Below, one piece after another: positions 28,320 to 40,250 of a stretch of DNA of 59,268 bases (position 1 is the first letter of the stretch; every line of letters begins with the position of its first letter). A program made the position numbers and the translations under genes. Below the pieces are notes generated by a model. The model was not told where the DNA came from, made no database searches, and was given only the letters and a program-made list of their open reading frames with translations. The stretch spans positions 1 to 59,268 of the forward strand of contig JAUNJN010000009.1 in assembly GCA_030533235.1 (NCBI GenBank), written 5' to 3'. This DNA comes from Eubacteriales bacterium. GTDB taxonomy: Bacteria > Bacillota > Clostridia > Lachnospirales > Lachnospiraceae.

Positions 28320-29582
28320 TTAATCATTATCAGCCATTAAAACTGCATTTAACATAACCGTTGCACCCTCTGTACAATGCTCCGGTGAAGAATACTCCGG
28401 CTCACAATGGGAAAGTCCGTCCTTTGACTGAACAAAAATCATTGTGGTCGGTAGCATATATGCCGCAAACTGAGCATCATGACCTGCACCGGAATGAATA
28501 TACTGATGCGATACACCGACTTCCTCTGCTGCCGCCTTCACATAACCAACAAGCTTTTTATCCCAATAAACGGTATCTCTGTTCCATGCCTTTTCCACTG
28601 TGCACGAGCAGCCTGCCCATGTCTTATCTGCACAGCTTTTTACGATAGCCAAAACCTGTTCCAATACCTTTGGATCCTCGTGACGGGCATCAAACGAGAA
28701 ATCAAAGAAATCAGGCACACAAGTATGTACACACGGATGACATACAACCTCTCCGGTCGTATAAACAAGATCCGAATAACCCAGCTTATCAATCTCTGTA
28801 TGCAAGTAACAAAGTGCTTCCGACGCTGCAAGAAATGCATCCTTTCTCTTTGGCATCGGGAATGTACCTGCATGTGTTGTCTGTCCGTAAAACTTTAATC
28901 GATAGTTGAACATACCAAGTACACAGTCAACGACACCAATGTCATTTCCGGAATCCTCAAGAATCGGGCCCTGCTCAATGTGAGTTTCAAACATATACTG
29001 ATAACGTTCCGGCGAAAGTCTGTATTTCTTGTCGCCCTTGAAGCCCGACTTTTCAAGTGCATCTCCAAATGTACAGGTTGCATCGAGAATACTCTGCGAT
29101 TTCATCATATCCTCATACTTAAACTTTACTCGAATATCCTCCGGCAAATAGTCATAACATACAATACCCGAACACATCATTGCCGGCGGATAAAGAGAGC
29201 CCTCTTCATTTGTCCAAATCATCGCTGTTAATGGATGCTTATGCGGAATCTTTTGTTCAACAACCGTCTCCAAAACCTCCATGGCTGACATAACTCCAAG
29301 AATGCCATCATAATTTCCACCATTTTTTACAGAATCACAATGAGATCCCATTACAATTCTTTTAGCATCAGTATCTGTACCCGGAATCGTCGCATATATG
29401 TTTGCGACATCATCAATCTCGATTTGTGCTCCAATGGCTTTCATTCTTTTCAGAAATTCATTTCTGGCAAGAATTGCCTCCGGTGAAAGCGAGTATCGCG
29501 TAATGCCACCGTGTCCGGCATCACCAAACTTCGAAAAGGTTTCAATTTTATCCTTCATTCTATCCAAACTGCATGTATACAT
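28320..29582 (-). CDS. N-carbamoyl-beta-alanine amidohydrolase-type M20 enzyme (beta-ureidopropionase)
   Basis: A 420-aa zinc hydrolase of the hydantoinase/carbamoylase branch of M20. Metal and catalytic residues are GSHCDSV (His81), NYDGILG (Asp92), WTNEEGS (Glu126/127), the dimerisation-domain TTHAGTFPM and HSGAGHDAQ. It would hydrolyse N-carbamoyl-beta-alanine to beta-alanine, CO2 and ammonia, the third reductive step; allantoate or an L-carbamoyl amino acid are alternatives within the family. Operon neighbours supply the first two steps. AGGAGG lies 8 bases before the ATG. The gene follows the dehydrogenase gene by 12 bases. Confidence 0.88.
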   Translation of the reverse strand: MYTCSLDRMKDKIETFSKFGDAGHGGITRYSLSPEAILARNEFLKRMKAIGAQIEIDDVANIYATIPGTDTDAKRIVMGSHCDSVKNGGNYDGILGVMSAMEVLETVVEQKIPHKHPLTAMIWTNEEGSLYPPAMMCSGIVCYDYLPEDIRVKFKYEDMMKSQSILDATCTFGDALEKSGFKGDKKYRLSPERYQYMFETHIEQGPILEDSGNDIGVVDCVLGMFNYRLKFYGQTTHAGTFPMPKRKDAFLAASEALCYLHTEIDKLGYSDLVYTTGEVVCHPCVHTCVPDFFDFSFDARHEDPKVLEQVLAIVKSCADKTWAGCSCTVEKAWNRDTVYWDKKLVGYVKAAAEEVGVSHQYIHSGAGHDAQFAAYMLPTTMIFVQSKDGLSHCEPEYSSPEHCTEGATVMLNAVLMADND

Positions 29583-29594
29583 AATCCTTACCTC

Positions 29595-31079
29595 CTATTT
29601 CTTGACTCTGGCTCCGACGCCAATTGCACCGGCCGGACAAATCAGCTTACAAAGCTGACAGCCAACACATTTCGCCGGATCCAGAATCGGTGTTTTCGTT
29701 GCCTCATCCATCCGTAGTGCCTGATGACCGCCATCATAACAAGACAAATAACATCTTCCGCATGTAACACATTTGCTTCGATCAAACTTTGGGTACTCAA
29801 TGGTTGCCCGATTAACGCTTTCTGCGTCCGTAATATTGGCATTTGCCATACCGATAAGCTCCGTAACAGACACCATACCTTTCTCTTTCAGGTAATTTTT
29901 CATCCCGTCAATCATATCCTCGATAATTCGATAACCATATTGCATAACGGCGGTTGTAACCTGCACCGTTCCGCAGCCAAGTGCCATAAACTCGGCCGCA
30001 TCCTTCCATGTCTCAATTCCGCCCATCCCACTGATTGGTACATTCCGAAGCATCGGATTCTGCTTCATATCATTGATAAAACGTAGTGCAATCGGCTTAA
30101 CCGCCTTTCCGGAATAGCCACCAACTGTTGATTTTCCGTCCACCTTTGGCTCAGAAACAAAATCATCCAAATCCACATTCATAATACTTTTAATTGTATT
30201 AATTGCTGCAATTCCATCTGCACCGGCTTTAATTGCACACTCCGCAGGCTCCACCATATCTGTAATGTTTGGCGTCATCTTTGCAAGAATCGGTAATTTC
30301 GTACCTCTTCTCGTTGCTCTTGTATAGCGCTCCACCAAATCAAGGTTGGTTCCTACATCACTTCCAAGTCCTTCCCCTACCATCTGTGGGCATGAAAAGT
30401 TACACTCAATAATATCAACACCGGCCTGCTCCATCAGCTGTGCCAGTCTCGTCCACTCCTCTTCATTTTGTCCCATAATGGAACCAATCAGGACCTTCGA
30501 TGGATAATTCTTTTTTAATTCCTTTAGAAATCCAAGGTTTTCTTCCAAAGAATGATCCGACGTCTGCTCGATATTTTTGAAGCCGACAAATGGCTGATTC
30601 TCCTTTTCCAACGCAGCAAAACGCGGTGACACCTCATCCGGTATAAAGAAACCGACCGTTTTGAATGCAACGCCTGCCCACCCCATTTCAAAAGCTTTTG
30701 TCACCATCTCATAATTACTTCCAACAACCGAAGATGATAAAAAAAATGGGTTCTCACATGTTACTTTGCAAAATTCAGTTGAAAGATCTACATCGACATT
30801 CGGCACCGTCTTATTTCCGATATTTGACATGACATACGGAATATCAATTGCCTTGTCAATAATCCCTCGGTTACAAAATGATACACATGGTGCATCACAT
30901 GTCAGACAAGGATTTCCCGGTCCTTTTTCCTTTGCAGCTCCAATCGGATTTTCAAATCGAAGCGACTGAATAATTTTACCCGGATTCACCTTTTTCGGAC
31001 ACATATTGTTACACGGTGCATCATGACATAATAAACACCTTCCGACTTCTGTTTTTATTCGAATTTCCTCATATGCCAT
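29595..31079 (-). CDS. preA: PreA-type dihydropyrimidine dehydrogenase with fused N-terminal two-cluster Fe-S domain
   Basis: A 494-aa cytoplasmic flavo-iron-sulfur enzyme expected to reduce uracil/thymine to the dihydro form. Residues about 10-75 carry eight cysteines, [13 protein letters not shown] (15,18,23,27) and CLTCDAPC...C (58,61,65,69), as in PreT or mammalian DPD. Residues about 95-390 are the FMN-binding dihydroorotate-dehydrogenase fold ([38 protein letters not shown]). The C-terminus has two more cluster motifs ([22 protein letters not shown]). E. coli PreA is about 410 aa without the N-terminal domain. The FAD/NADPH module of PreT is absent here and in the neighbourhood. The ATG at 31079 is preferred; a GTG lies three codons upstream. 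Confidence 0.88.
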
Positions 31080-31103
31080 ATAACCCACTTCCTGTCCTTT
31101 TAT

Positions 31104-32471
31104 TTATGCACGGGGACTGCGTTTTACATACTGTCCTGTACCCGGTACACCAACGTAGCTTCCATCATCATACACAAGCTTACCTCTTAAGTATGTCTGA
31201 ACCGGATAGCCATGAAGTTTCTTACCTTCCCAGATCGTATGATCATAATCCGAGTGCATATTATCTACGCTGATTGTAAAATCCTTCTCCTTATCATATA
31301 TTACGATATCTGCATCCTTACCGACTGCAATCGCACCCTTATTTTCACAACCAAATATTTTTGCGACATTTGTAGCACAAACCTCGACAACCTTCTCAAA
31401 CGGAAGCTTTCCCGCATTTGCCGCATCCAGCATGTATGGATACAAGTTCTCAACACCTGCACAACCGTTTGGAATCTTAGTAAAGTCGTCCTTGCCCCAA
31501 TCCTTCTCATAACTCTGGAATGGACAATGGTCGGTTGCTACTGTGTCAATAAATCCAGCCTTAAGTGCCTTCCATAAAGCATCCTGGCTTTCCTGTCCTT
31601 TCATTGGAGGAGAACATACAAAATTTCTACCATCCTCCCGCTTATAAACATCGCAAGTAAACTCTAAATACTGTGGACAAGTTTCCACATATATTTCATT
31701 TCCCTCTTCCTTTGCCTTGATACAAGCCTCCATACCTTCCTTATCTGCCATATGTACAATATAAACAGGCGTATTCAAATGACTTGCCCAATGTACAACT
31801 CTCTTATCTGCCTCCGCCTCAACAAACTCCGGACGACTCATGTAATGATACCAGGCAGATGTTTTTCCCTCTTTCAAATATTGTGCGGTTCGAAGGTCGA
31901 TTAAATCCGGATTTTCGGCATGGACGTTGATCAATGCACCCAATTCCTTTGCACGTAATAAAAGTGTTGCAAGCATCCCGTCATCAACCATCATTCCCTC
32001 TTTCTTATATACAAGAAAACACTTAAAGCTCGTGATTCCCTCCTCAACCGCCTTGCTCATTTCCTCAAGTATAGCGCCTTCATTCAAGTCAGTAATACAA
32101 CAATGGAATGCATAATCGCAGCATGCCTCCTTCTCAAGCACTTCCTTTTTTGAATTAACGAGTCCCAAAATTGTTTCACCCTTATGCTGGACCGGATAAT
32201 CAAAAATAGTTGTAACACCACCGCAAACAGCAGCACGTGTTCCCGAGTAATAACTATCCGCAGAAACCGTTCCGCCAAAAGGCATTGCCATATGTGTATG
32301 TGCATCAATTGCCCCCGGGAGAACCAGCTTCCCGCTTGCGTCGACAACTTCATCCGCATCCAAAGGTAAATTCTTTCCGATTGCTACGATTTTTCCATTC
32401 TCAATAGCGACATCCGCAATATAGCTTTCGGTCGCTGTTACAACTGTACCGCCCTTAATCAACAAATCCAT
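31104..32471 (-). CDS. Dihydropyrimidinase (D-hydantoinase family)
   Basis: A 455-aa cyclic amidohydrolase that opens dihydrouracil or dihydrothymine to N-carbamoyl-beta-amino acids. All binuclear-zinc residues are visible: DAHTHMAM (His58, His60), the carboxylated lysine in SFKCFLVYK (Lys150), INVHAEN (His184), YIVHMAD (His240) and VATDHCPF (Asp314). Length is normal. GAGGTG lies before the ATG at 32471; the in-frame upstream codons overlap a hairpin and are not likely translated. It is the second catabolic step, directly downstream of the importer binding protein and upstream of the dehydrogenase. Confidence 0.94.
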   Translation of the reverse strand: MDLLIKGGTVVTATESYIADVAIENGKIVAIGKNLPLDADEVVDASGKLVLPGAIDAHTHMAMPFGGTVSADSYYSGTRAAVCGGVTTIFDYPVQHKGETILGLVNSKKEVLEKEACCDYAFHCCITDLNEGAILEEMSKAVEEGITSFKCFLVYKKEGMMVDDGMLATLLLRAKELGALINVHAENPDLIDLRTAQYLKEGKTSAWYHYMSRPEFVEAEADKRVVHWASHLNTPVYIVHMADKEGMEACIKAKEEGNEIYVETCPQYLEFTCDVYKREDGRNFVCSPPMKGQESQDALWKALKAGFIDTVATDHCPFQSYEKDWGKDDFTKIPNGCAGVENLYPYMLDAANAGKLPFEKVVEVCATNVAKIFGCENKGAIAVGKDADIVIYDKEKDFTISVDNMHSDYDHTIWEGKKLHGYPVQTYLRGKLVYDDGSYVGVPGTGQYVKRSPRA

Positions 32472-32494
32472 TTCCGACACCTCATTTCTTATAA

Positions 32495-32523
32495 ACCGAC
32501 GGCCACCTCTCGCAGCCGTCGGT
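32495..32523 (-). promoter_or_regulatory. Intercistronic hairpin inside the operon
   Basis: Perfect 9-bp arms ACCGACGGC and GCCGTCGGT around 11 bases lie between the binding-protein stop and the dihydropyrimidinase start. No U run follows, so it more likely sets differential expression or mRNA stability, keeping transporter and enzyme levels distinct. Confidence 0.55.
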
Positions 32524-32540
32524 ACCAAAAAACCTATTAC

Positions 32541-33689
32541 TTAAAAGTTATCCAGCTTGTATACGAGTACAAGACCGGATCTCTGGTAAATCTGAGCAAT
32601 TTCAACAAGATCCATACCGCCGGCATCAGCGACCGCAAGGTTTGTCAACCATGTAACACCGAAATCAACGGTTCCGTTATTTACAGCGGTTGTCTCTGAG
32701 ATATCACCACCACCGGAGATGATTTCAACATCCAGACCAACTTCTTCATAATATCCCTTATCAAGTGCTACAAAGTAACCCATAAACTGTGCCTGCGGCA
32801 ACCACTTCAGCTGAATCGATACCTTACTTTTTTCAACCTCAAACTTACCGTCAGATGCAAGTGCTGTATCATAGAATGAAGTATCTCGGATATCATCCAG
32901 TGTTAAGCTCTTAAATTTCTCTGCCGCCGTTGCATCCTCCAATGTAACGTATGTCTTTGCAATATCGAGTGTCTGCTGCATGGCTGTATCATCCATCTTA
33001 CCGATTTCAGAAACAGCTGCTCCGTTCATATCTGTATAAACAAGCTTTGCCACCTCTGATGCCATGTATGACTGATGATCCGCTGATACAGACGATCCGT
33101 ACTTGTAGCATATTTCAGCAGCTTCCTCCGGATTCTGACATGCATATTCCCAACCCTTCAGGGATGCATATACGAAAGCGGCTACCGTATTTGGGTTTTC
33201 TTCGGCGAACTTCTTTGTACAGAAAATATTATCCTCTAGCATTGCGACACCCTCATCATTCATATCGATGATGTCGACGGTATCACCATATCCGTAACCA
33301 CCCTCATAGGAATTTTTTGTCAATCCCAGCTCATTATAGGTCATTGCAGATGCCAATGTTACAGAATCATCATCAAAGCCATCCATCGTGAAATCCTGAC
33401 TTAAATATTCTGTTGGCAAATTATACTTTGCGAGCAAAGCCAGAATTTCGTACTCATTTCCAAGTCCCCAGTTACCAACCTTACCTTCGGTTGCAGCCTT
33501 CTTAAGAACCTCCTCCTTTGACATCGGTGTCGCCGTTTCGCCTGAGTTTGTTGTATCCCCTGCGTCAGTTGCCTCTGCCTGTGTAGGTGCTGCAGTTTTT
33601 GTTTCCTCCTTGTCTGAACCGCAGCCTGCTAATAAAGTTGTTGACAGTGCTGCTACAGTTAATAAATGAATCCATTTTCTCTTTCTCAT
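32541..33689 (-). CDS. ABC importer substrate-binding lipoprotein, NMT1/THI5 type, apparently circularly permuted
   Basis: A 382-aa lipoprotein (lipobox LLAGC, Cys23) with a Thr/Ala-rich linker to about residue 55. The order of the family is inverted. The mature protein opens with KVGNWGLGNEYEILALLAKY (70-89), usually found after the first lobe crossing, then IIDMNDEGVAMLED and SLKGWEYACQNPEEA. The stretch that normally begins the mature protein, VSIQLKWLPQAQFMGYFVAL with GLDVEIISGGG and VDFGVTWLTNLAV, is at 290-382. The ends meet at the natural inter-lobe crossing (QRSGLVLVYK / GKVGNWG). It would capture the pyrimidine or ureide imported by the neighbouring permeases. AGGAGG precedes the ATG. 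Confidence 0.88.
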   Translation of the reverse strand: MRKRKWIHLLTVAALSTTLLAGCGSDKEETKTAAPTQAEATDAGDTTNSGETATPMSKEEVLKKAATEGKVGNWGLGNEYEILALLAKYNLPTEYLSQDFTMDGFDDDSVTLASAMTYNELGLTKNSYEGGYGYGDTVDIIDMNDEGVAMLEDNIFCTKKFAEENPNTVAAFVYASLKGWEYACQNPEEAAEICYKYGSSVSADHQSYMASEVAKLVYTDMNGAAVSEIGKMDDTAMQQTLDIAKTYVTLEDATAAEKFKSLTLDDIRDTSFYDTALASDGKFEVEKSKVSIQLKWLPQAQFMGYFVALDKGYYEEVGLDVEIISGGGDISETTAVNNGTVDFGVTWLTNLAVADAGGMDLVEIAQIYQRSGLVLVYKLDNF

Positions 33690-33738
33690 AATCGTTTCCT
33701 CCTATCATCATTTCATATTGTTTATTCAAATGAGAAGA

Positions 33739-34578
33739 CTAATGATATCTTCTCAATAGAATGCTTTGTGTAATCATAAGCACTACATACATAACAATTC
33801 CCAAAATGCATGCCATAAAAATGTATGCCCATGCGGTTGCATACTGTGCTAAAACAATACACTCCCGAATCTGTCTTCCGACCCCTGTAATGTATTCTGC
33901 AAAATATTCACTTACAATGGTTGTCATGATACTCGCGGGTACGGACACACGAAGTGCCACAAAAATATAAGGTACAGAATTTGGAAGCCGGAGCTTTGTA
34001 AAGGTTTTTAACTTTTTTGCCGCATAGGTTGCCATCAAATCTTCTGCGTAAGGCTTTAATTCTGTCAGTCCCCGATATGCATTCAGTGACATATTCGCAG
34101 CTGAAATGAGCGTTACAACAACGATTTTGGCAACCATGCTTCTTATACTGGCGTCCGATGAAATATCCTTCGTCCAGTTATTCATAACAGGTGCCAGGGC
34201 GACAACCGGAATGGAAGCAAATGCTCCAATCAGACTAAGTCCTCCTTTTCCAAGCTTTGGAAATAACGCTGCCAGCACTGCGATAAAATATCCAAAAACA
34301 CTTCCTATGAAAAGTCCAATCAATGCAACAGTCATTGTTGGCTTTACATTTTTCATGATCTTTCCAAAGTTATCACCAAATATGGTGCAGATTCGGGACG
34401 GAAGCGGTAAAGCAAATGTATCTGTATGAAACCATGTATGTAATACCTGACCCTCCCATAATCCAATCAGTACCACACCAAACATAAGCGGAAGTACGAC
34501 GGTCATGACTGCCTGAAATTTTTGATTGTTTTTCATTCTCTGATGTAATGACTGTTTTCTCTTAATTTTTTGAGCCAT
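33739..34578 (-). CDS. ABC importer permease
   Basis: A 279-aa inner-membrane permease of the SsuC/ThiX type with about six membrane helices. The EAA-like loop reads ATYAAKKLKTFTKLRLPNSV, with a downstream PYIFVALRVSVP. A short basic cytoplasmic N-terminus (KRKQSLHQRMKNNQK) precedes the first helix. AGGAGG lies before the ATG. It pairs with the second permease (13 bases apart) as a heterodimer, with the ATPase first in the operon. Such importers carry thiamine precursors, riboflavin, taurine or pyrimidines; context favours pyrimidines. Confidence 0.92.
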   Translation of the reverse strand: MAQKIKRKQSLHQRMKNNQKFQAVMTVVLPLMFGVVLIGLWEGQVLHTWFHTDTFALPLPSRICTIFGDNFGKIMKNVKPTMTVALIGLFIGSVFGYFIAVLAALFPKLGKGGLSLIGAFASIPVVALAPVMNNWTKDISSDASIRSMVAKIVVVTLISAANMSLNAYRGLTELKPYAEDLMATYAAKKLKTFTKLRLPNSVPYIFVALRVSVPASIMTTIVSEYFAEYITGVGRQIRECIVLAQYATAWAYIFMACILGIVMYVVLMITQSILLRRYH

Positions 34579-34591
34579 ACCAATCGCCTCC

Positions 34592-35407
34592 TTATCTTCT
34601 TCTTGCTGCTCTTAAATTCGGTAAAACAAGCGACTCAATCCAACCCATAAGCTTTCCGCTTAATATTCCGATAAACGCACTGAAAAATACGATAATCCAA
34701 AAAACGTAGATTGACATTGCGTGCTTTAACGACTGCGACAGCATACATCCAAGTCCGCCATCCCCCTGCAAGGTATCTACCAGAATGGATGCAGTGATTG
34801 CGATTGGTGCCGCAATCTTTAACCCCGTAAAGAAATACGGAACGGAAGATGGGATTAATACCTTTGTGTATATCACCCTTCTTGGCGCAGCATATGTATA
34901 CATCAAATCATATTTTTCTTTTTCAACGGCCTTAAACCCAGCCAACGTGTTCGCTGCGACCGGGAAAAAGCTTAAGATCGCTGCAATGACGACTCTGCTC
35001 AGATTGATATCTCCGGTGATTGCAAGAACAATCGGCGCAAGTCCCAAAACCGGAATCAACTGAATTAACATCAGATACGGGGAAAGGATCTTCTCAACTG
35101 TTCCCGAGATTTTCATAATCAATGCGAATAAGAATCCGAGAGCAGCTCCGAGTAAAAATCCAGCCAAGGCCCGAAACAATGTCTTTCCCGCACTGTGTAG
35201 TACAATTGCAATTGCCGTTTCTCCATTGGCAACCGGCTTAGAAGAACACACAGCGGAGACAATCTGCCCCAGATGCGGTAATATATTTTCGGGCGAACGC
35301 TTTGAGTGTTCGACTATATTTGCTCCGATTTCCCATGCAGCTATGAGAAGGAGCAGCCAAAGTATGAGCGATATAAAATCTTTGTTTCTTTTTCGAAAAA
35401 CTTTCAT
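34592..35407 (-). CDS. ABC importer permease
   Basis: About 271 aa with five to six membrane helices. The EAA-like loop reads YTYAAPRRVIYTKVLIPSSV, followed by PYFFTGLKIAAPIAITASI and GGLGCMLSQSL. It is the heterodimer partner of the neighbouring permease. The ATG at 35407 lies one base after the ATPase stop, with the ribosome site GGAGG inside the ATPase gene, so the two are translationally coupled. An upstream in-frame ATG would extend it by seven residues into the ATPase frame. Confidence 0.92.
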   Translation of the reverse strand: MKVFRKRNKDFISLILWLLLLIAAWEIGANIVEHSKRSPENILPHLGQIVSAVCSSKPVANGETAIAIVLHSAGKTLFRALAGFLLGAALGFLFALIMKISGTVEKILSPYLMLIQLIPVLGLAPIVLAITGDINLSRVVIAAILSFFPVAANTLAGFKAVEKEKYDLMYTYAAPRRVIYTKVLIPSSVPYFFTGLKIAAPIAITASILVDTLQGDGGLGCMLSQSLKHAMSIYVFWIIVFFSAFIGILSGKLMGWIESLVLPNLRAARRR

Positions 35408-35408
35408 A

Positions 35409-36194
35409 TTAAACACTTCCTCCCTCAAAGCTGTTTCGAACCTTCACTACAAGTTCATTGAAATGCTGTGTATCCTTAACCTCAAGTCTTCTTGGTCTTG
35501 GAATATCCACATCAACAATTGCTGACAGCCTGCCGGGATGTGGAGATAATACACAAATTCTGTCTGATAAAAATACTGCCTCCTGAATATTGTGTGTTAC
35601 GAAAATAACCGTTTTGTTTGTCTGTCTCCATATACGAAGCAAATCCTCGTGCAGTTTTTCCTTTGTAAACTCATCCAATGCCGAAAACGGCTCGTCCATA
35701 AGCAAAATCTCAGGTCTCAATGCGAAAGCTCTTGCGATATTTACTCTCTGCTGCATACCACCTGACAGCTGTTTCGGAAAATGCTTGCGAAACTCTGAAA
35801 GTCCTACCATCTCAAGCATTTCATCGGCTCGTTTTGACCGTTCCGCTTTGTCACAATACATAATCTCAAGCGGAAGCTCTACATTTTTCTTAACCGTTCT
35901 CCAGTCAAACAAAACCGGTTGCTGAAATACGAATCCAAATTTCTGTTGCAGACGAATTTCCTTTGGTGTCATACCATCGATTCGAACGGTTCCGTCAGTT
36001 GGCTCCTGCAAATCCGCAATGCATCGAAGTAATGTTGTCTTTCCGCATCCGGACGGACCAAGTAAAGAAATAAATTCTCCCTTATGAATATCCAAATTAA
36101 TTCCGGTAAGTGCCTTTACGTCATTTCCCTCATTATCCTTAAATGTCACATTTAAATCTTTTACAGCAATCTGCACTTCTCTTTCCTCTGCCAT
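35409..36194 (-). CDS. ABC importer ATP-binding protein
   Basis: A 261-aa SsuB/TauB-type ATPase with Walker A GPSGCGKTTLLR, Q-loop FQQPVLFDWRTVKKN, signature LSGGMQQRVNIARAFALRP, Walker B ILLMDEPFSALDE and switch VTHNIQEA. It powers the two permeases downstream. The ATG at 36194 is chosen because AGGAGG lies 7 bases upstream. It is the first gene of the transport-catabolism operon, which continues through eight genes to 27675. A terminator-like hairpin and a palindromic operator lie in its leader region. Confidence 0.95.
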   Translation of the reverse strand: MAEEREVQIAVKDLNVTFKDNEGNDVKALTGINLDIHKGEFISLLGPSGCGKTTLLRCIADLQEPTDGTVRIDGMTPKEIRLQQKFGFVFQQPVLFDWRTVKKNVELPLEIMYCDKAERSKRADEMLEMVGLSEFRKHFPKQLSGGMQQRVNIARAFALRPEILLMDEPFSALDEFTKEKLHEDLLRIWRQTNKTVIFVTHNIQEAVFLSDRICVLSPHPGRLSAIVDVDIPRPRRLEVKDTQHFNELVVKVRNSFEGGSV

Positions 36195-36210
36195 AAAGGT
36201 CCCTCCTAAC

Positions 36211-36253
36211 AAAAAAGACACAGCAAAAGTCTTCCTAGCGCCTTTGCTGTGTC
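36211..36253 (-). terminator. Intrinsic terminator between the dehydrogenase gene and the ABC operon
   Basis: The minus strand has perfect 11-bp arms GACACAGCAAA/TTTGCTGTGTC followed by TTTTTT. It lies 16 bases before the ATPase start codon. It may end the aminotransferase-dehydrogenase transcript or act as a leader terminator for the operon. Confidence 0.75.
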
Positions 36254-36351: not shown

Positions 36352-37509
36352 TCAGTTTTTCCGATAAGCCCTTATATAAAGTGAACTACAGTCTGCAACA
36401 GTTACCTCTCGTCTTGTGTTTCCCGGACTTCCTGAAGCAATTGCATCATTTGCCATTTTATTAACCACCGCCATGTATACCTCCTCTGAAATCCCATATG
36501 AACACAGCGTCGGTATCTCACATGACCGGCGTAATGTATCTATCACATCGATTAATTTTTCTGCTGCAGATGTATCACTCTCAGCATTATTTGCAGCGCC
36601 GATTGCCCGTGCGATATCCGCAAACCGTTCATAATGATCCTGCATCGCAAATACCATGCATTCCCGCAACAGCATCGCATTACTAAGCCCGTGCGGAACA
36701 TGAAACATGGCACCAATCGGTCTGCTCATTCCATGTACAATTGTGACACTGGAATTATTGATACAAATACCGGCTTCCAATGCGGCAATTGCCATCTGTT
36801 CCCTCGCCTGCCCATCATATCCGTTTTGATATGCAACCGGCAAATATTTCACTATCCTTTGAATCGCTGATAATGCATAACTGTCCGTCAGACACATTGC
36901 CTTTTTAGATGTGTATGCCTCGATAGCGTGTGTAAGCGCATCAAAGCCGGTCGCAGCTGTAATGGATTTCGGCATATCTATTGTATAGTCCGGATCCACA
37001 ATCGCAAGTTTCGGAATCAGCTTTTCGCCTTTCAGAAGCATTTTTATCCCTTTTTTTGAATCAGTGATTACCGTAAATTTTGTTGCCTCAGATCCGGTCC
37101 CCGCTGTTGTAGGAATCGCCACTATCGGCGGAATATTTCCCTCGATTTCCTTCCCCATGTAATCGGAAATGTTTCCTATATTTACCACCATTGCCGCGAT
37201 TGCCTTTGCAGAATCAAGTGGGCTTCCGCCACCAATCCCGATCACGTAATCACAACGGTGCTCCTGATACATCTTACAACCTCTCGTAATCATTTCATCG
37301 GTTGGTTCCCCTGTAATCTCGTCAAACACAAAGCTTTCCGCTTGAATAAATCTTAGGGCCGCAACCAGACTGTCCATCATGGGAGACTTTCCAACATGCT
37401 TTCCGGTAACAATAAGTGCCCTCTTCCCATACCGCTTCAAATATGGCAAAGCCTCTTTGATTGCACCACATCCAACTACAATGTGTTCCGGAATTGAAAA
37501 ATGTGCCAT
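36352..37509 (-). CDS. Iron-type alcohol dehydrogenase, probable malonate-semialdehyde reductase
   Basis: A 385-aa group III iron-dependent dehydrogenase. It has GGGSPLDSAKAIA (NAD(P) binding), IPTTAGTGSEATKF, the metal-site GFDALTHAIEAYTS and HGMSRPIGAMFHVPHGLSNA. The family includes reductases of sulfoacetaldehyde, propanediol and butanol pathways. Here it lies 11 bases after a class III aminotransferase gene in a pyrimidine-degradation locus, so reduction of malonate semialdehyde to 3-hydroxypropionate (and the methyl analogue from thymine) is the best inference. A sulfoacetaldehyde role cannot be excluded from the sequence. Confidence 0.85.
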   Translation of the reverse strand: MAHFSIPEHIVVGCGAIKEALPYLKRYGKRALIVTGKHVGKSPMMDSLVAALRFIQAESFVFDEITGEPTDEMITRGCKMYQEHRCDYVIGIGGGSPLDSAKAIAAMVVNIGNISDYMGKEIEGNIPPIVAIPTTAGTGSEATKFTVITDSKKGIKMLLKGEKLIPKLAIVDPDYTIDMPKSITAATGFDALTHAIEAYTSKKAMCLTDSYALSAIQRIVKYLPVAYQNGYDGQAREQMAIAALEAGICINNSSVTIVHGMSRPIGAMFHVPHGLSNAMLLRECMVFAMQDHYERFADIARAIGAANNAESDTSAAEKLIDVIDTLRRSCEIPTLCSYGISEEVYMAVVNKMANDAIASGSPGNTRREVTVADCSSLYIRAYRKN

Positions 37510-37520
37510 ATATATCCCCC

Positions 37521-38852
37521 CTAAAGCATCGTTTCATCTACAACCGACAATACTTCGGCCAGCTTTTCCATTTCTTCTTTCAACTGTTCCTCCGTAATAA
37601 TCAGAGGAGGACAGATAAATATCATATTTTCATGAGAATATGTCATAAACTGCTTTGCCTTCAGCATTCCAACAATCCTTGGCATTACCGCTTCCGGATC
37701 CTTTCCATAGCTGACAAGCGGTTCCTTAGATTCCTTGTCCTTCACTAACTCAACACAAGAGAACAATCCAATGTAACGAACGTCACCAACACACTTGAAC
37801 TTATCCTTGAAGCCTTCAAGAATGATTCCTAAAACCTTACCTACTTTATTAACATTTTCCAAAATATTCGCTTCTGAATAATAGTTCACACAGGCAACAC
37901 CGGCCGCACATGCAAGCGGATGTCCACTGTATGTCAAACCACATGATAATAAGTGATCATCAAAATATTCTGCAATCTTGCTGCTTACTGCAACACCACC
38001 AAGCTGAACATAGCCGCAGGTTACACCTTTCGCAAAAGTAACAAGATCCGGCACTACATCAAAATTCTCAAAAGCAAACATTTTACCGGTTCTGCACCAG
38101 CCCGCCATAACCTCATCACAAATCATGACGATGCCAAATTCATCACAAATCTTACGAACACCCGGAAGATAACCCTTCGGAGGAATAATAATACCATTGG
38201 AGCCTGTAATTGTTTCCATGACGATGGCTGCGACGCTGTCAGGTCCCTCATAGATAATCTGTTCACGCAGCTTTGTCAGATAATAATTCGTTGCAGCTTC
38301 CTCGGACGGAAAATCAATTGGTTCTCTGTAAATGTAAGGATCAAAAAACTTGACAAAGCCCGGAATCCCCGGCTCCAATGGATATCTTCTTGGCTCACCT
38401 GTCAGATTACCTGCACCAAAGGAAGAACCATGGTAACTTCTGTAACGACTAAATATCTTTTTTCTTCCTGTAAACATTCTCGCAATCTTGATTGCATTTT
38501 CATTCGCATCTGCGCCGGCATTTGTAAAGAAAACCTTTCCAAATGTGTCCGGAAGCAAGTCAACAATCATCTTGGCAAGCCTTGCTCTTGGTTCCGCTGC
38601 ATAAGACGGTCCTACAAAACAATAACGGTCTACCTGCTCTTTGATTGCCTCTGCAATTTTTGTATTTCCAAATCCCACATTTAAATTAACAAGCTGTGAT
38701 GACATATCCGTATATCTCGTTCCATCATAATCATAGAAATAAATACCTTCTGCCTTTTCAATCGGAATCGGATTAAGTGCACCCTGCTTACTCCATGACT
38801 GTAATACATACTGCTTTGACATTTCCTTAATTTCTTCTGCTTTATTACCCAT
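37521..38852 (-). CDS. Class III aminotransferase, probable beta-alanine aminotransferase
   Basis: A 443-aa PLP enzyme. Visible are YTDMSSQLVNLNVGFGNTKI, the cofactor segment FFTNAGADANENAIKIAR, RSYHGSSFGAGN, the Asp of MICDEVMAGWCRTG and the lysine in TFAKGVTCGYV that forms the aldimine. Context suggests transfer of the amino group of beta-alanine (or 3-aminoisobutyrate) to an oxo acid, giving malonate semialdehyde. Taurine aminotransferase is the main alternative within the family. AGGAGG lies before the ATG. It is the first gene of a two-gene unit with the iron dehydrogenase and has its own promoter. Confidence 0.88.
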   Translation of the reverse strand: MGNKAEEIKEMSKQYVLQSWSKQGALNPIPIEKAEGIYFYDYDGTRYTDMSSQLVNLNVGFGNTKIAEAIKEQVDRYCFVGPSYAAEPRARLAKMIVDLLPDTFGKVFFTNAGADANENAIKIARMFTGRKKIFSRYRSYHGSSFGAGNLTGEPRRYPLEPGIPGFVKFFDPYIYREPIDFPSEEAATNYYLTKLREQIIYEGPDSVAAIVMETITGSNGIIIPPKGYLPGVRKICDEFGIVMICDEVMAGWCRTGKMFAFENFDVVPDLVTFAKGVTCGYVQLGGVAVSSKIAEYFDDHLLSCGLTYSGHPLACAAGVACVNYYSEANILENVNKVGKVLGIILEGFKDKFKCVGDVRYIGLFSCVELVKDKESKEPLVSYGKDPEAVMPRIVGMLKAKQFMTYSHENMIFICPPLIITEEQLKEEMEKLAEVLSVVDETML

Positions 38853-39071: not shown

Positions 39072-39086
39072 GAAAGGGTTTTGGTT

Positions 39087-40250
39087 ATGGCTATTTTGTT
39101 GCGTTCACTCATAAAAGAAGTATCTAACATGGATATTACCCTCGTTGCAGGAGAATCCGGTATGAACACACCTGTAAGCTGGGTCCATATGGTGGAAACC
39201 GTAGATGCGACAAGCTTTCTGGATGGTGGAGAGGTTGCCTTTGTTACCGGAATCGGTCTAAGTAAACAAGACACCATTTTGGACCTTATATCAAACATCC
39301 ATGACAGAAATGCAGCCGGTGTATTTGTCAACCTTGGACCATTTATTGATTCCATTCCGGAAGCTGTAATTAAATACTGCAATGAGAAGGAATTTCCCTT
39401 GTTTACAGTTCCCTGGAAAATCCATCTTGCCGAAATCATCCGTAAATTCAGTTGCGAAATTACAAAAGATGATCAAAAGCATATGCAGATTTCCTCTTCT
39501 TTTATGAACGCACTATTTTTTCCCGAACAGGAACATTTATATATTACCCCACTTGCCCAATACGGCTTTCAACCAAACTGGCAGTACGCGGTCTGTATGC
39601 TGAAATTTACATTAAACGATTCCACCGATATTCCGTATATCGAGCGTTTAACCTTGCAAATGGAACGTTTTTTAAAACACTACTACAACAACTACGCCGT
39701 CTTTCGTCTGGAAGAATCTATTATCATTATAATGGCAGATTACACGGAGGACGAGGTACGTGAGCTCGTCGCCAAAATTTTTGAACGTTCTCGCACCTAT
39801 TGTTCCCCGGATGCACTTCCGTCCATCGGTTGCGGTCGCCTCACCCAAAGCCTCCGTTGCATTTACAAAAGCTTTCAGCAGGCAAAATCAATCACCAATT
39901 TGCAAGAACGAAAGAAAATTTCCAAATCAAACATATTTTATTCCGATATGGGAATTTATCGACTGCTTATGTCGGTTACCGACACTGACGCAATAAATTA
40001 TTTTTGTAACGAGACAATTATGCCTCTCGTAGACTACGATAAAACAAATAATTCCAATTTGACAGAGGTATTACGAAAGTATTTGCAAAACAACGGGAGC
40101 GTTATTGACACTGCAAACGAAATGTATGTGCATCGGAACACCATCAATTACAAGCTTAAGAAAATTGAAGAAATATTAGATGTCGATCTATCATCCTTAG
40201 ATTTCAGAATTCATGCGGCACTCGGACTTTATCTGCTCGATCTGCTGTAA
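39087..40250 (+). CDS. PucR/CdaR-family transcriptional regulator
   Basis: A 387-aa regulator. The N-terminal PucR domain (about 5-125) includes VAGESGMNTPVSWVHMVETV and GGEVAFVTGIG. A degenerate GGDEF-like middle domain follows, and the C-terminal PucR helix-turn-helix is VIDTANEMYVHRNTINYKLKK. Members of this family control purine, pyrimidine, amino-acid and sugar-acid catabolism, usually as activators sensing the substrate. It is divergent from the aminotransferase unit and adjacent to two identical-arm palindromes, so it very probably controls the whole pyrimidine locus. AAAGGG precedes the ATG; an in-frame TTG lies two codons upstream. An intrinsic terminator lies in its leader. Confidence 0.9.
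   Translation: MAILLRSLIKEVSNMDITLVAGESGMNTPVSWVHMVETVDATSFLDGGEVAFVTGIGLSKQDTILDLISNIHDRNAAGVFVNLGPFIDSIPEAVIKYCNEKEFPLFTVPWKIHLAEIIRKFSCEITKDDQKHMQISSSFMNALFFPEQEHLYITPLAQYGFQPNWQYAVCMLKFTLNDSTDIPYIERLTLQMERFLKHYYNNYAVFRLEESIIIIMADYTEDEVRELVAKIFERSRTYCSPDALPSIGCGRLTQSLRCIYKSFQQAKSITNLQERKKISKSNIFYSDMGIYRLLMSVTDTDAINYFCNETIMPLVDYDKTNNSNLTEVLRKYLQNNGSVIDTANEMYVHRNTINYKLKKIEEILDVDLSSLDFRIHAALGLYLLDLL

Follow-up and report, generated by a model that had tools for sequence, protein, structure and literature searches.

A Circularly Permuted NMT1/THI5-Like Binding Lipoprotein Encoded with a Probable Pyrimidine Importer of Clostridia

Introduction

How does the binding lipoprotein of an ABC importer come to carry the two halves of its chain in swapped order, and what would such an order mean for its anchoring? 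The question arises from one gene in a stretch of 59,268 nt, hereafter the window, from an Eubacteriales bacterium of the Lachnospiraceae (GCA_030533235.1, contig JAUNJN010000009.1), which a preliminary description had taken to encode a circularly permuted protein. We are confident of the overall answer developed below: the gene encodes a permuted, lipid-anchored binding protein of a likely pyrimidine importer, its permutation has a single origin and its tether would now enter lobe II.

The Gene and Its Operon

The reading frame of the binding protein starts with ATG and runs for 382 codons with no interruption. Its gene closes a group of four for the importer and is followed by those for dihydropyrimidinase, a PreA-type protein and an M20-type amidohydrolase, while the genes for an iron-containing alcohol dehydrogenase and a class III aminotransferase lie upstream of the ATPase gene:

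37521..38852, minus strand: class III aminotransferase, possibly for beta-alanine (PF00202)
36352..37509, minus strand: iron-containing alcohol dehydrogenase, possibly acting on malonate semialdehyde (PF00465)
35409..36221, minus strand: ABC ATPase (PF00005)
34592..35428, minus strand: ABC permease 1 (PF00528)
33739..34578, minus strand: ABC permease 2 (PF00528)
33698..33703, minus strand: AGGAGG, likely ribosome-binding site before the binding-protein ATG (sequence)
32541..33689, minus strand: circularly permuted NMT1/THI5-like substrate-binding lipoprotein, 382 residues (profile matches, rotation test)
31104..32528, minus strand: dihydropyrimidinase (TIGR02033, 498.7 bits, cut-off 393.25)
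29595..31088, minus strand: PreA-type dihydropyrimidine dehydrogenase subunit (PRK08318, 576.5 bits, cut-off 335)
28320..29582, minus strand: M20-type amidohydrolase, possibly N-carbamoyl-beta-alanine amidase (TIGR01879, 324.9 bits, cut-off 204; PF01546)

This set of genes fits a reductive pathway that takes pyrimidines to beta-alanine and beyond, in which the substrates of the last three enzymes are presumed. In the window, therefore, the binding protein is coded together with an importer ATPase, two permeases and enzymes of pyrimidine breakdown, and the same company is found among 46 related loci of other genomes, the flanks of which are often cut: dihydropyrimidinase and permease 2 in 43 each, PreA in 41 and the ATPase in 40. 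Judging from these neighbours, the ligand of the importer would most likely be pyrimidines (uracil, thymine or their reduced forms), and the gene product would act as the lipid-anchored binder of an ABC importer feeding pyrimidines to the breakdown enzymes of its own operon. Another ligand, for example allantoin, hydantoin or a thiamine precursor, seems unlikely to us, even if some names point that way: the nearest solved relatives, 3ix1 and 4h65, take their names from pyrimidines of the thiamine pathway, the amidohydrolase scores best in NCBIfam as allantoate amidohydrolase (435.1 bits, cut-off 399), and allantoinase matches the dihydropyrimidinase with 319 bits, below the cut-off of 358. Against this stand the dihydropyrimidinase and PreA, which pass their cut-offs and accompany the binding protein so regularly, as well as the binding proteins themselves: permuted and unpermuted relatives have 44 positions in common, 27 of which occur in under 35% of 13 other NMT1 rows and separate the group from them.

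Some further features of the operon deserve a record. A PucR-type regulator, perhaps that of the operon, is coded divergently at 39081-40250 (plus strand) and adjoins the aminotransferase end. After the operon comes a cytidylate-kinase-like protein (PF13189; 27675-28307, minus strand), which also accompanies the binding protein at close range in 21 of the 46 loci. Ahead of the flavin body of the PreA-type protein lies about half a Fer4_20 domain (residues 6-53, profile 12-59 of 113, barely above the cut-off), and the FAD/NADPH part of PreT is absent from this frame; BLAST alignments of the protein start at residues 1-11 for 14 other copies and at 98-101 for six copies of the group f56. Its electron donor may differ from NADPH. 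At locus L121 (7293-8125, minus strand), permease 2 is split into two overlapping frames of 158 and 141 residues, possibly by a frameshift or a sequencing error.

Two Halves in Swapped Order

Against the Pfam profile NMT1 (PF09084), the window protein scores 102.5 bits (cut-off 20.5) in two stretches, which follow each other along the chain in an order that is not that of an ordinary member. The best of them joins residues 300-379 to profile positions 2-81; the C-terminal piece alone gives the same profile range with 66.2 bits, and the N-terminal piece alone matches positions 104-216 with 43.8 bits. Only after rotation does the protein match in a single stretch, covering positions 2-216 of the 216. 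The claims that the mature protein opens with a part that is later in canonical proteins, and that the canonical opening block forms the last 93 residues, are thus borne out: the former part begins with KVGNWGLGNEYE at residue 70, the latter with KVSIQLKW at residue 289, its VSIQLKW portion comprising residues 290-382.

The preliminary description had proposed comparing the bit scores of native and rotated proteins. For whole proteins these barely differ, because HMMER sums stretches: with NMT1 they are 103.4 for the trimmed native and 104.7 for the rotated protein, and with the best PDB match, 4nmy, 73.3 (native, full length) and 70.9 (rotated), even if the native match to 4nmy consists of two stretches (43.6 and 29.6 bits) and the rotated match of one (69.2 bits, chain 7-256). 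The discriminating measure is the score of the best single stretch against a profile built from 13 unpermuted relatives, which rises from 176.3 bits in the native to 294.1 in the rotated window protein. When residues 50-382 were rotated to every possible start, starts from 250 to 286 gave 297-300 bits and the native start 176; this plateau, at about 250-288, is the tail and linker separating the two halves and, with the alignments, bears out the short linker that had been placed near residue 285. Rotation raised the score by 99.5 to 125.0 bits in all 44 permuted proteins so treated (the window protein and those of 43 loci), which are 44 of the 45 complete ones; L016 lacked the motif used, and the fragments L040 and L048 were left out. 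Conversely, rotating the unpermuted protein of L112, itself in the profile, lowered its score from 561.4 to 331.9 bits, a loss of about 230, and 200 shuffles of the rotated window protein reached at most 7.5 bits. In profile-profile comparison of the native order, the alignment is confined to residues 69-279, which pair with the C-terminal portion of the profile of unpermuted relatives.

No other family intrudes: at E values up to 0.001 the Pfam matches are NMT1 and NMT1_2 only, and at E values up to 0.01 there are six PDB matches, all to NMT1/THI5-type proteins. The best of the latter by sequence (4nmy, 3ix1 and 4h65) have halves homologous to those of the window protein but in canonical order. 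By the order of its profile stretches, the window protein is a circularly permuted derivative of NMT1/THI5-like proteins, not an ordinary member.

Unpermuted Relatives

The 13 unpermuted relatives (L109-L115, L149, L151-L153, L158 and L159) align with the rotated window protein in one piece, at 35-48% identity (BLASTP), and with the native protein in two. Genes for the importer ATPase and permeases adjoin all 13, if only as a piece of permease 2 at the contig end in L152. Dihydropyrimidinase and PreA are also present in ten of these loci: in L112, L114 and L115 the genes run dihydropyrimidinase, PreA, ATPase, permease, permease, binding protein; the two enzymes are coded some kilobases off in L109-L111, L113, L158 and L159, and on the opposite strand in L151. 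Neither enzyme appears in the stretch read of L149, L152 and L153, the last two being short contigs. These proteins therefore resemble the window protein in their partners, an ATPase and two permeases, and in their lipobox (by a loose pattern in all 13, as in 44 of the 46 loci, where the exceptions are the fragments L040 and L048), and differ from it in the canonical order of their halves.

The position of the cut can be read from the same comparison. The unpermuted protein of L110 runs across it as LVLVSKKDAGISGPADLKGKKVGNW, whereas permuted proteins end one to seven residues after LVYK and, after their tether, start with sequences such as SKEEVLKKAATEGKVGNW. Fifteen of 44 permuted proteins, that of the window among them, end a single residue after LVYK, and K378 is the last invariant residue in a 36-sequence alignment.

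One genome, G829, has both forms: a permuted operon with pyrimidine genes (L150) and a separate, unpermuted one (L149), which has no dihydropyrimidinase in the stretch read.

Lobes, Hinges, and the Tether

We placed the cut in the fold with the help of TauA of Escherichia coli, whose domain borders are known from the literature (PMC6906117): domain I comprises residues 23-104 and 202-319 and domain II residues 105-201, with hinges at 103-106 and 200-202. TauA is of class II like the window protein, though it has the canonical order, binds taurine (PMC6906117) and is a remote relative, with 20% identity and a probability of 88 in a forced global profile alignment. When the two proteins are aligned, hinge 2 falls at residues 151-153 of the window protein and hinge 1 at 370-373, the latter differing by one residue in a second alignment, based on profiles. 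The parts of the window protein are, with this mapping:

33624..33689, minus strand: lipoprotein signal peptide, residues 1-22 (sequence)
33621..33623, minus strand: lipobox cysteine C23 (invariant in the 36-sequence alignment)
33483..33620, minus strand: residues 24-69, tether and the piece SKEEVLKKAATEG, at the place of SPADLKGK in unpermuted proteins (alignment)
33237..33482, minus strand: residues 70-151, putative lobe II body, now N-terminal (TauA mapping)
33231..33239, minus strand: residues 151-153, putative hinge 2 (TauA mapping)
32853..33236, minus strand: residues 152-279, putative lobe I, canonical C-terminal part (alignments including the TauA mapping)
32823..32852, minus strand: residues 280-289, linker between the former C- and N-termini, with approximate limits (alignments, rotation plateau)
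32583..32822, minus strand: residues 290-369, putative lobe I, canonical N-terminal part (profile, alignments, TauA mapping)
32571..32582, minus strand: residues 370-373, putative hinge 1 (TauA mapping)
32544..32570, minus strand: residues 374-382, remainder of the LVLVYK stretch (putative last lobe II strand) and C-terminus

The chain would thus end one lobe II strand past hinge 1, which places the cut in a loop of lobe II and leaves both crossings in place. The preliminary description had the two ends abutting at the inter-lobe crossing and the hinge itself permuted, with closing dynamics that could be altered; by the TauA mapping, neither the abutment nor the permuted hinge is favored, since what would change is the lobe that bears the anchor and not the hinge. 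The idea of a single remaining covalent crossing was also considered and dropped, because the mapping places the C-terminal strand past the crossing. The predicted path leads from the tether through lobe II, hinge 2, the second part of lobe I, the linker, the first part of lobe I and hinge 1 to the last lobe II strand. The fold would remain a two-lobed one of type II with two crossings, both of which probably survive, while the lipid anchor probably moves from lobe I to lobe II; both chain ends would lie in lobe II, whereas in ordinary proteins both lie in lobe I. Mechanistically, we envisage that the old C-terminus became joined to the old N-terminus through about ten residues and that new ends opened in the lobe II loop directly past the first inter-lobe strand. 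The resulting protein would keep the type II clamp and a similar pocket, and would work as an ordinary Venus-flytrap binder. Its main difference from the unpermuted relatives, the tether of which enters the lobe I half, would be a tether through lobe II.

Natural permutation of a type I binding protein is already known. TpMglB-2 (Tp0684) of Treponema pallidum, a lipid-anchored type I sugar binder, has been found by crystallography to be naturally permuted, and its description proposes a Type Ic, or cluster Bc, for such proteins in treponemes and Gram-positive gut bacteria; the permutation there creates a fourth crossing, and an adaptation in anchoring was suggested (PMC4990184). What the two share is that an ABC binding protein with a lipid anchor has been circularly permuted in nature. 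The window protein differs in being a type II protein of the NMT1 kind, which by our mapping on TauA would gain no new crossing, and probably also in the class of its ligand; no type I (cluster B) fold like that of TpMglB-2 appears among its Pfam and PDB matches, which are of NMT1 type only. Among the open-access titles searched, the matches listed include no report of a permuted binding protein of NMT1 type or type II.

Has the new order been selected? It is doubtful, if somewhat conceivable, that we face a second independent permutation of a lipid-anchored ABC binder, now of type II and, like the first, present in spirochaetes and Gram-positive anaerobes, which was selected because a tether on lobe II alters the presentation of the protein to heteromeric permeases. 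We likewise consider it unlikely, and slightly more so, that such a tether was favored for altering the docking on two different permeases or for sparing the binding site from strain. The parallel of TpMglB-2, from another lipid-anchored family, speaks for adaptation (PMC4990184), and so does the length of the tether, which seems to be kept: the median distance from the cysteine to the first block is 42.5 residues in 44 permuted proteins, about 14 of which are lobe II sequence, and 27 in 12 of the 13 unpermuted ones. But all 13 unpermuted relatives show a lipobox by the loose pattern, and G829 maintains the two forms in separate operons. Anchoring therefore neither requires the permutation nor explains it alone, and no benefit of the swapped order is evident; the adaptive proposal for TpMglB-2 is weakened in its simplest form because unpermuted relatives look like lipoproteins, too.

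Origin of the Permutation

A branch with SH-aLRT 98 sets all 51 permuted rows apart in a protein tree of 78 rows. Removing L154, an extreme long branch, together with L050 and 11 permuted rows that were close or redundant, left a more careful tree of 65 rows, in which the 40 permuted rows group together (97/98, the bootstrap not settled); the unpermuted group is weak there (75/36) and splits in the tree of the short half. L016 and L119, in which the motif was missed, were left out of the trees, even if BLAST shows the permuted order in both. The importer partners tell the same story, since in a 31-row tree of the ATPase and both permeases the 19 permuted operons part from the 12 unpermuted ones (SH-aLRT 100). 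With a single permuted group in the trees of the protein, its halves and its partners, one origin is the simplest reading: the permutation would have arisen once, probably in an ancestor among Clostridia.

Swapped stretches would also result if halves of two different NMT1-like genes had been fused, instead of one gene being permuted; the linker carries no diagnostic sequence, and the trees of the halves are short and partly unresolved. We nevertheless regard fusion as very improbable. Both halves match one and the same unpermuted protein, that of L112, with 45% identity over residues 70-250 of the window protein and 49% over 274-378. In separate trees of the two halves (65 rows each, 40 of them permuted), the permuted group has a support of 99 for the canonical N-terminal half and a weak 74 for the C-terminal one, and in each tree it falls with the pyrimidine-operon proteins, split at 100 from 12 other NMT1 rows. 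The importer partners of permuted and unpermuted proteins are related, too.

As to how the single permutation came about, tandem duplication followed by trimming is the likeliest route. The duplication with partial deletion that had been proposed fits the order of the halves, but no duplicate intermediate has been seen: no second copy lies beside the gene among the same-strand frames of the 46 loci, nor on either strand in 27 loci. Three comparisons point to purifying selection on both halves (dN 0.08-0.16; dS 0.97-3.2, partly saturated). Moreover, L038 and L045, of spirochaete titles, nest within rows of Bacillota titles in both the protein tree and the partner tree, which suggests horizontal transfer.

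Occurrence of the Permuted Form

Other Lachnospiraceae do have the native order of the window protein, as the preliminary description had proposed to check: 44 of the 46 loci of other genomes match it collinearly along most or all of the chain. The remaining two lie at contig ends, L040 matching over residues 115-382 and L048 being a fragment. The titles of the carriers include Lachnospiraceae, other Clostridia, Treponema sp. CETP13 and Pleomorphochaeta. Six of the collinear loci come from named strains rather than metagenome bins: Agathobacter ruminis JK623, Eubacterium cellulosolvens LD2006, Acetitomaculum ruminis DSM 5522, Eubacterium oxidoreducens DSM 3217, Defluviitalea phaphyphila Alg1 and Clostridium sp. 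KNHs205, the last on a contig of 4.7 Mb.

Pfam stretches in swapped order occur in at least seven of 96 genomes of the order, six of which were read at the locus level, the seventh being that of the window. The native protein finds matches in nine of 150 genomes of the family, the window genome included, and the rotated one, at 1e-20, in 11 of 391 genomes of the class. Six of these 11 (G000, G041, G093, G605, G704 and G829) have the permuted form over both halves; G649 has a single half, coded in a short frame, unpermuted proteins occur in G761, G654 and G845 and additionally in G829, and the match in G804 is remote. In the class of G117, 12 of 151 genomes have relatives, all 12 with their pieces in canonical order. 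The genome sets partly overlap (L120 with L011, L121 with L028, L156 with L027), so that these counts are not additive. The permuted order is an inherited rearrangement that has been kept in dozens of genomes. An assembly chimera wrongly joining two half genes, for which one could cite only that the window genome is a draft of 67 contigs and 87% completeness, is refuted, because independent genomes, named strains among them, have the same order in a conserved operon.

Implications

Permuted binding proteins of this kind show up in domain searches as two partial matches. Together with their unpermuted relatives they form a natural pair that has the same importer partners, both members being present in G829, and with which one may ask whether the order of the chain and the lobe that is anchored matter to an ABC importer.
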